Assembly: GCA_016209865.1 (NCBI GenBank)
Contig: JACQVL010000356.1
Location: 1-20,362, forward strand
Source of the DNA: Candidatus Latescibacterota bacterium
GTDB taxonomy: Bacteria > JAAXHH01 > JACQVL01
Length of the DNA stretch: 20,362 nucleotides
Direction: 5' to 3'
A program made the translations under genes and the position numbers. Shown here piece after piece: positions 1 through 369 of the stretch. The notes under the pieces are model-generated. The model saw only the letters and a list, made by a program, of their open reading frames with translations, was not told the origin of the DNA and ran no database searches. Each line of letters begins with the position of its first letter. Within the stretch, counting starts at the first letter, position 1.

Positions 1-369
<369 letters not shown>

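Follow-up and report, generated by a model that had tools for sequence, protein, structure and literature searches.

The sarcin-ricin loop of a truncated 23S rRNA gene and its surroundings

The stretch of DNA analyzed here (20,362 nucleotides from an assembly of a Candidatus Latescibacterota bacterium; the whole stretch is referred to as the window) begins on the plus strand with the 3' end of a 23S rRNA gene (positions 1 to 371), the 5' part of which is lost at the contig start. These 371 nt aligned with RF02541 from model position 2564 to the model end at 2925, with a score of 366.7 bits (E = 2.5e-117; gathering score, 50). A search of the window's own genome with the Rfam family gave no match, probably because the fragment is short relative to the 2925-position model; when the assembly was searched at the DNA level instead, the 23S stretch was found once. 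The operon continues with its 5S rRNA gene at positions 431 to 547 (+) (RF00001, 101.8 bits).

The sarcin-ricin loop (E. coli 2654 to 2667) occupies positions 117 to 130 (+) and reads AGTATGAGAAGACC. In the RF02541 alignment, it differs from the consensus UAGUACGAGAGGACC at two bases only, position 121 (+), with U for C, and position 126 (+), with A for G, which are 2658 and 2663, respectively, in E. coli numbering. The initial annotation had reported exactly these two changes, and its letters and coordinates were borne out by the sequence and the alignment. G2655, U2656, A2657, G2659 to A2662, G2664, and A2665 are unchanged, and the GAGA tetraloop and the bulged-G motif (G2655, U2656, and A2665) are fully kept. 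According to PMC4176186, a cis Watson-Crick pair between 2658 and 2663 closes the GAGA tetraloop and connects this GNRA loop with the bulged-G motif; the window has a pyrimidine-purine Watson-Crick pair, U-A, at this place. Relative to the helix 95 loop of E. coli, the window thus shares the rRNA position, the GAGA tetraloop, the bulged-G motif, and a Watson-Crick closing pair, but carries U-A instead of C2658-G2663.

Directly downstream of the 23S-5S genes, at positions 762 to 2849 (+), lies a gene for a second, EF-G2-like elongation factor, in which PGY replaces PGH in the G domain and the loop-facing Asp, Arg, and Gln are not conserved. Such a gene was found near the 23S gene in at least seven loci of relatives as well (L119, L106, L074, L056, L091, L010, and L016), so this linkage is conserved. 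Positions 2875 to 5050 (+) hold consecutive genes for a SpoIIE-like phosphatase, an RsbW-like anti-sigma factor, and an anti-sigma antagonist, which together make up a compact partner-switching cassette near the rrn operon. An IS701-family transposase is encoded at positions 7377 to 8465 (-). At positions 8900 to 10156 (+), a single open frame fuses an ECF-type sigma factor (regions 2 and 4) with ankyrin repeats; it is directly followed, at positions 10191 to 11258 (+), by a gene for a shortened ATP synthase beta-like protein of 355 amino acids, which matches atpD from position 78 and has an altered P-loop (GPYGVGKLV).

Distribution of the U-A pair in the phylum and across bacteria

The presence of U-A was assessed in the window's phylum, which is represented by 16 genomes in the collection. 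All nine genomes whose assemblies contain the loop (the window's own included) carry U-A; six of the other seven had no match to this part of the 23S gene, and in the remaining one (G003) the contig starts downstream of the loop. As far as it can be read, the pair is therefore fixed in the phylum. The 23S ends of the phylum relatives are 92 to 93% identical to that of the window, and those of four loci from records deposited as Candidatus Latescibacterota (L056, L074, L091, and L106) fall in the same range; at only 92 to 93% identity, U-A has been inherited over a sizeable distance.

These relatives bear directly on whether both changes could be sequencing or assembly errors, or the mark of a pseudogene. 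The 23S gene is present as a single copy at a contig end in a fragmented assembly, as such an explanation would have it, but the same pair in eight further phylum genomes, with 23S ends 92 to 93% identical, makes error untenable. Moreover, two errors restoring a base pair by chance would be very unlikely, and the remainder of the loop is intact. The chance that error or a pseudogene accounts for the pair is vanishingly small, and this explanation is effectively refuted by the phylum relatives.

To determine how far the pair extends beyond the phylum, the exact 18-mer CTAGTATGAGAAGACCGG was scanned in a collection with one genome per species, and it was found in 109 stretches, all of which except one (L037) lie within 23S genes as judged by similarity to the window's gene. 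Chance near matches without 23S similarity (G001:C1013 [L031 and L150], G000:C97 [L149], G058:C67 [L005], and L037) were set aside. Carriers with complete genomes include phytoplasmas (Onion yellows, P. mali, and P. australiense) and Poribacteria. Further carriers are Acholeplasma, Haploplasma, many Poribacteria, WOR-3/Stahlbacteria, Berkelbacteria, and other Patescibacteria, and single metagenome-assembled genomes named as Coatesbacteria, Eisenbacteria, Caldisericota, Coprothermobacterota, and Anaerolineae, for which the placement of single contigs may be unsure. The loops of the Acholeplasmataceae (phytoplasmas and Acholeplasma) and the Poribacteria, lineages unrelated to that of the window, are identical to the window's over these 18 nt.

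U-A is thus a minority state, yet widespread in unrelated bacteria; it is real but not unusual. The initial annotation had considered the variant unusual unless it proved common across unrelated bacteria, and that proviso largely applies: the pair is widespread, although it is the less frequent state, and the claim that it is unusual was not sustained. A published analysis calls the 2658-2663 pair conserved in all bacteria; the data presented here show otherwise. Literature searches retrieved no paper joining sarcin, phytoplasma, and 23S and nothing relevant on U2658 or A2663, and the pair goes unmentioned in a covariation study (PMC3378556).

Covariation and repeated origin of the pair

Covariation was counted with patterns in which positions 2658 and 2663 were both free and the flanks exact, so that the counts cover loops with unchanged flanks and not rarer forms with other flank changes. 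Four samples were used: relatives plus domain-wide genomes (384), the Acholeplasma class (120 genomes), the phylum to which a Berkelbacteria genome belongs (145 genomes), and that to which a WOR-3 genome belongs (147 genomes). In this order, C-G was found in 94, 24, 70, and 26 genomes with a match (214 in total) and U-A in 10, 7, 3, and 8 (28 in total), counts in which at least one genome is seemingly included twice (G258 and G396 share coordinates) and which, coming from nonrandom samples, give no frequency for all bacteria. The other 14 combinations were found in no genome of the four samples; half-changed intermediates (U.G and C.A) were absent, as were G-C and A-U.

The number of origins was assessed on a 23S tree (147 rows and 1,662 columns; FastTree) from which the two loop positions had been masked. 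On this tree, C-G and U-A must have interchanged 10 times, and starred branches make 8 of these changes unavoidable; about 48 are needed when labels are shuffled. Separate U-A groups are formed by the Acholeplasmatales within C-G Bacilli, by the Poribacteria, and by the window's clade, which adjoins a C-G genome; further ones occur at two spots in WOR-3 and at least twice among the Patescibacteria. On this tree, the Acholeplasmataceae and Poribacteria acquired the pair separately from the window's lineage. U-A arose more than once, and the plural is firm; the exact number is soft because the tree was made with FastTree and has long branches. Compensatory covariation of the pair that closes the tetraloop is strongly supported, and the proposal that the two changes reflect real covariation rather than error holds on both counts: U-A is shared across the clade (9 of 9 readable phylum genomes), and the samples gave 214 C-G, 28 U-A, and no other genomes, with at least 8 changes on the tree.

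Phytoplasmas and acholeplasmas, which are A+T-rich, account for many of the carriers, with a G+C content at the locus from 27.5%, which would fit a change that merely tracks genomic enrichment in A+T. This explanation is unlikely. The G+C content of the window is 60.9%, so base composition is not the only cause, and among other carriers the G+C content of the locus goes up to about 60%. The retention of C-G in genomes of the Acholeplasma class may also count against it.

Functional setting and interpretation

The main EF-G of the genome is encoded on contig C18 (1107 bits), and its HIDAGKT, QERERGIT, DTPGH, and EPQSE motifs are intact. It keeps the regions of Asp20, Arg59, and Gln120, plus the DTPGH histidine, which we take to be a loop-facing residue. 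Asp20, Arg59, and Gln120 of EF-G are said to face the loop (PMC4176186). In the same paper, which cites Chan et al. 2000, mutants with U:A or C:G at this pair are reported to support growth of E. coli and G:C and A:U to be lethal, and the determinants at the pair are given as N7 of 2663 and C5 of 2658. U-A retains both groups. The viable E. coli U2658-A2663 mutant (Chan, Sitikov and Wool 2000, as related in PMC4176186) has the identical pair; the mutant was made in the laboratory, whereas U-A in the window is natural and fixed in the phylum.

EF-G and EF-Tu dock at the sarcin-ricin loop, which certain enzymes also attack. Whole clades are fixed for the pair, and in the window, as in its relatives, the rrn operon has a second and divergent EF-G as its neighbor. 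All of this could be expected if U-A were an adaptation that tunes factor activation or shields the ribosome from such enzymes. We regard this as very unlikely, since the pair is spread across groups with no evident lifestyle in common (phytoplasmas, Poribacteria, WOR-3, and Patescibacteria), the attacked bases of the GAGA loop are unaltered in the window, the main EF-G retains its loop-facing residues, and U:A is viable in E. coli according to the mutant data related in PMC4176186. For the same reasons, with the wide recurrence of the variant, nothing in the sequences supports the suggestion of the initial annotation that factor activation or toxin sensitivity may be altered.

The reading that we prefer, with a probability of roughly 0.93, is that U-A is a true compensatory change, fixed in the phylum as far as it can be read, recurrent, and expected to be near neutral. 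The swap retains the pyrimidine-purine cis Watson-Crick geometry at 2658-2663 and so preserves both the N7 acceptor of base 2663 and the fold of the loop that EF-G and EF-Tu need. Because pair geometry, N7, and fold are retained, U-A should be nearly neutral, and we infer that this holds in this organism; the swap has arisen independently in many bacterial lineages. There is a slim chance that a recurrent, clade-fixed U-A without visible intermediates marks lineages with subtly retuned activation of EF-G or EF-Tu. As a probably near-neutral compensatory change, U-A looks like an ordinary swap, not a special adaptation. The natural alternative is the very pair that mutagenesis found viable, and the lethal pairs are among those missing from the samples; apart from this match with the outcomes of mutagenesis, the case is ordinary.
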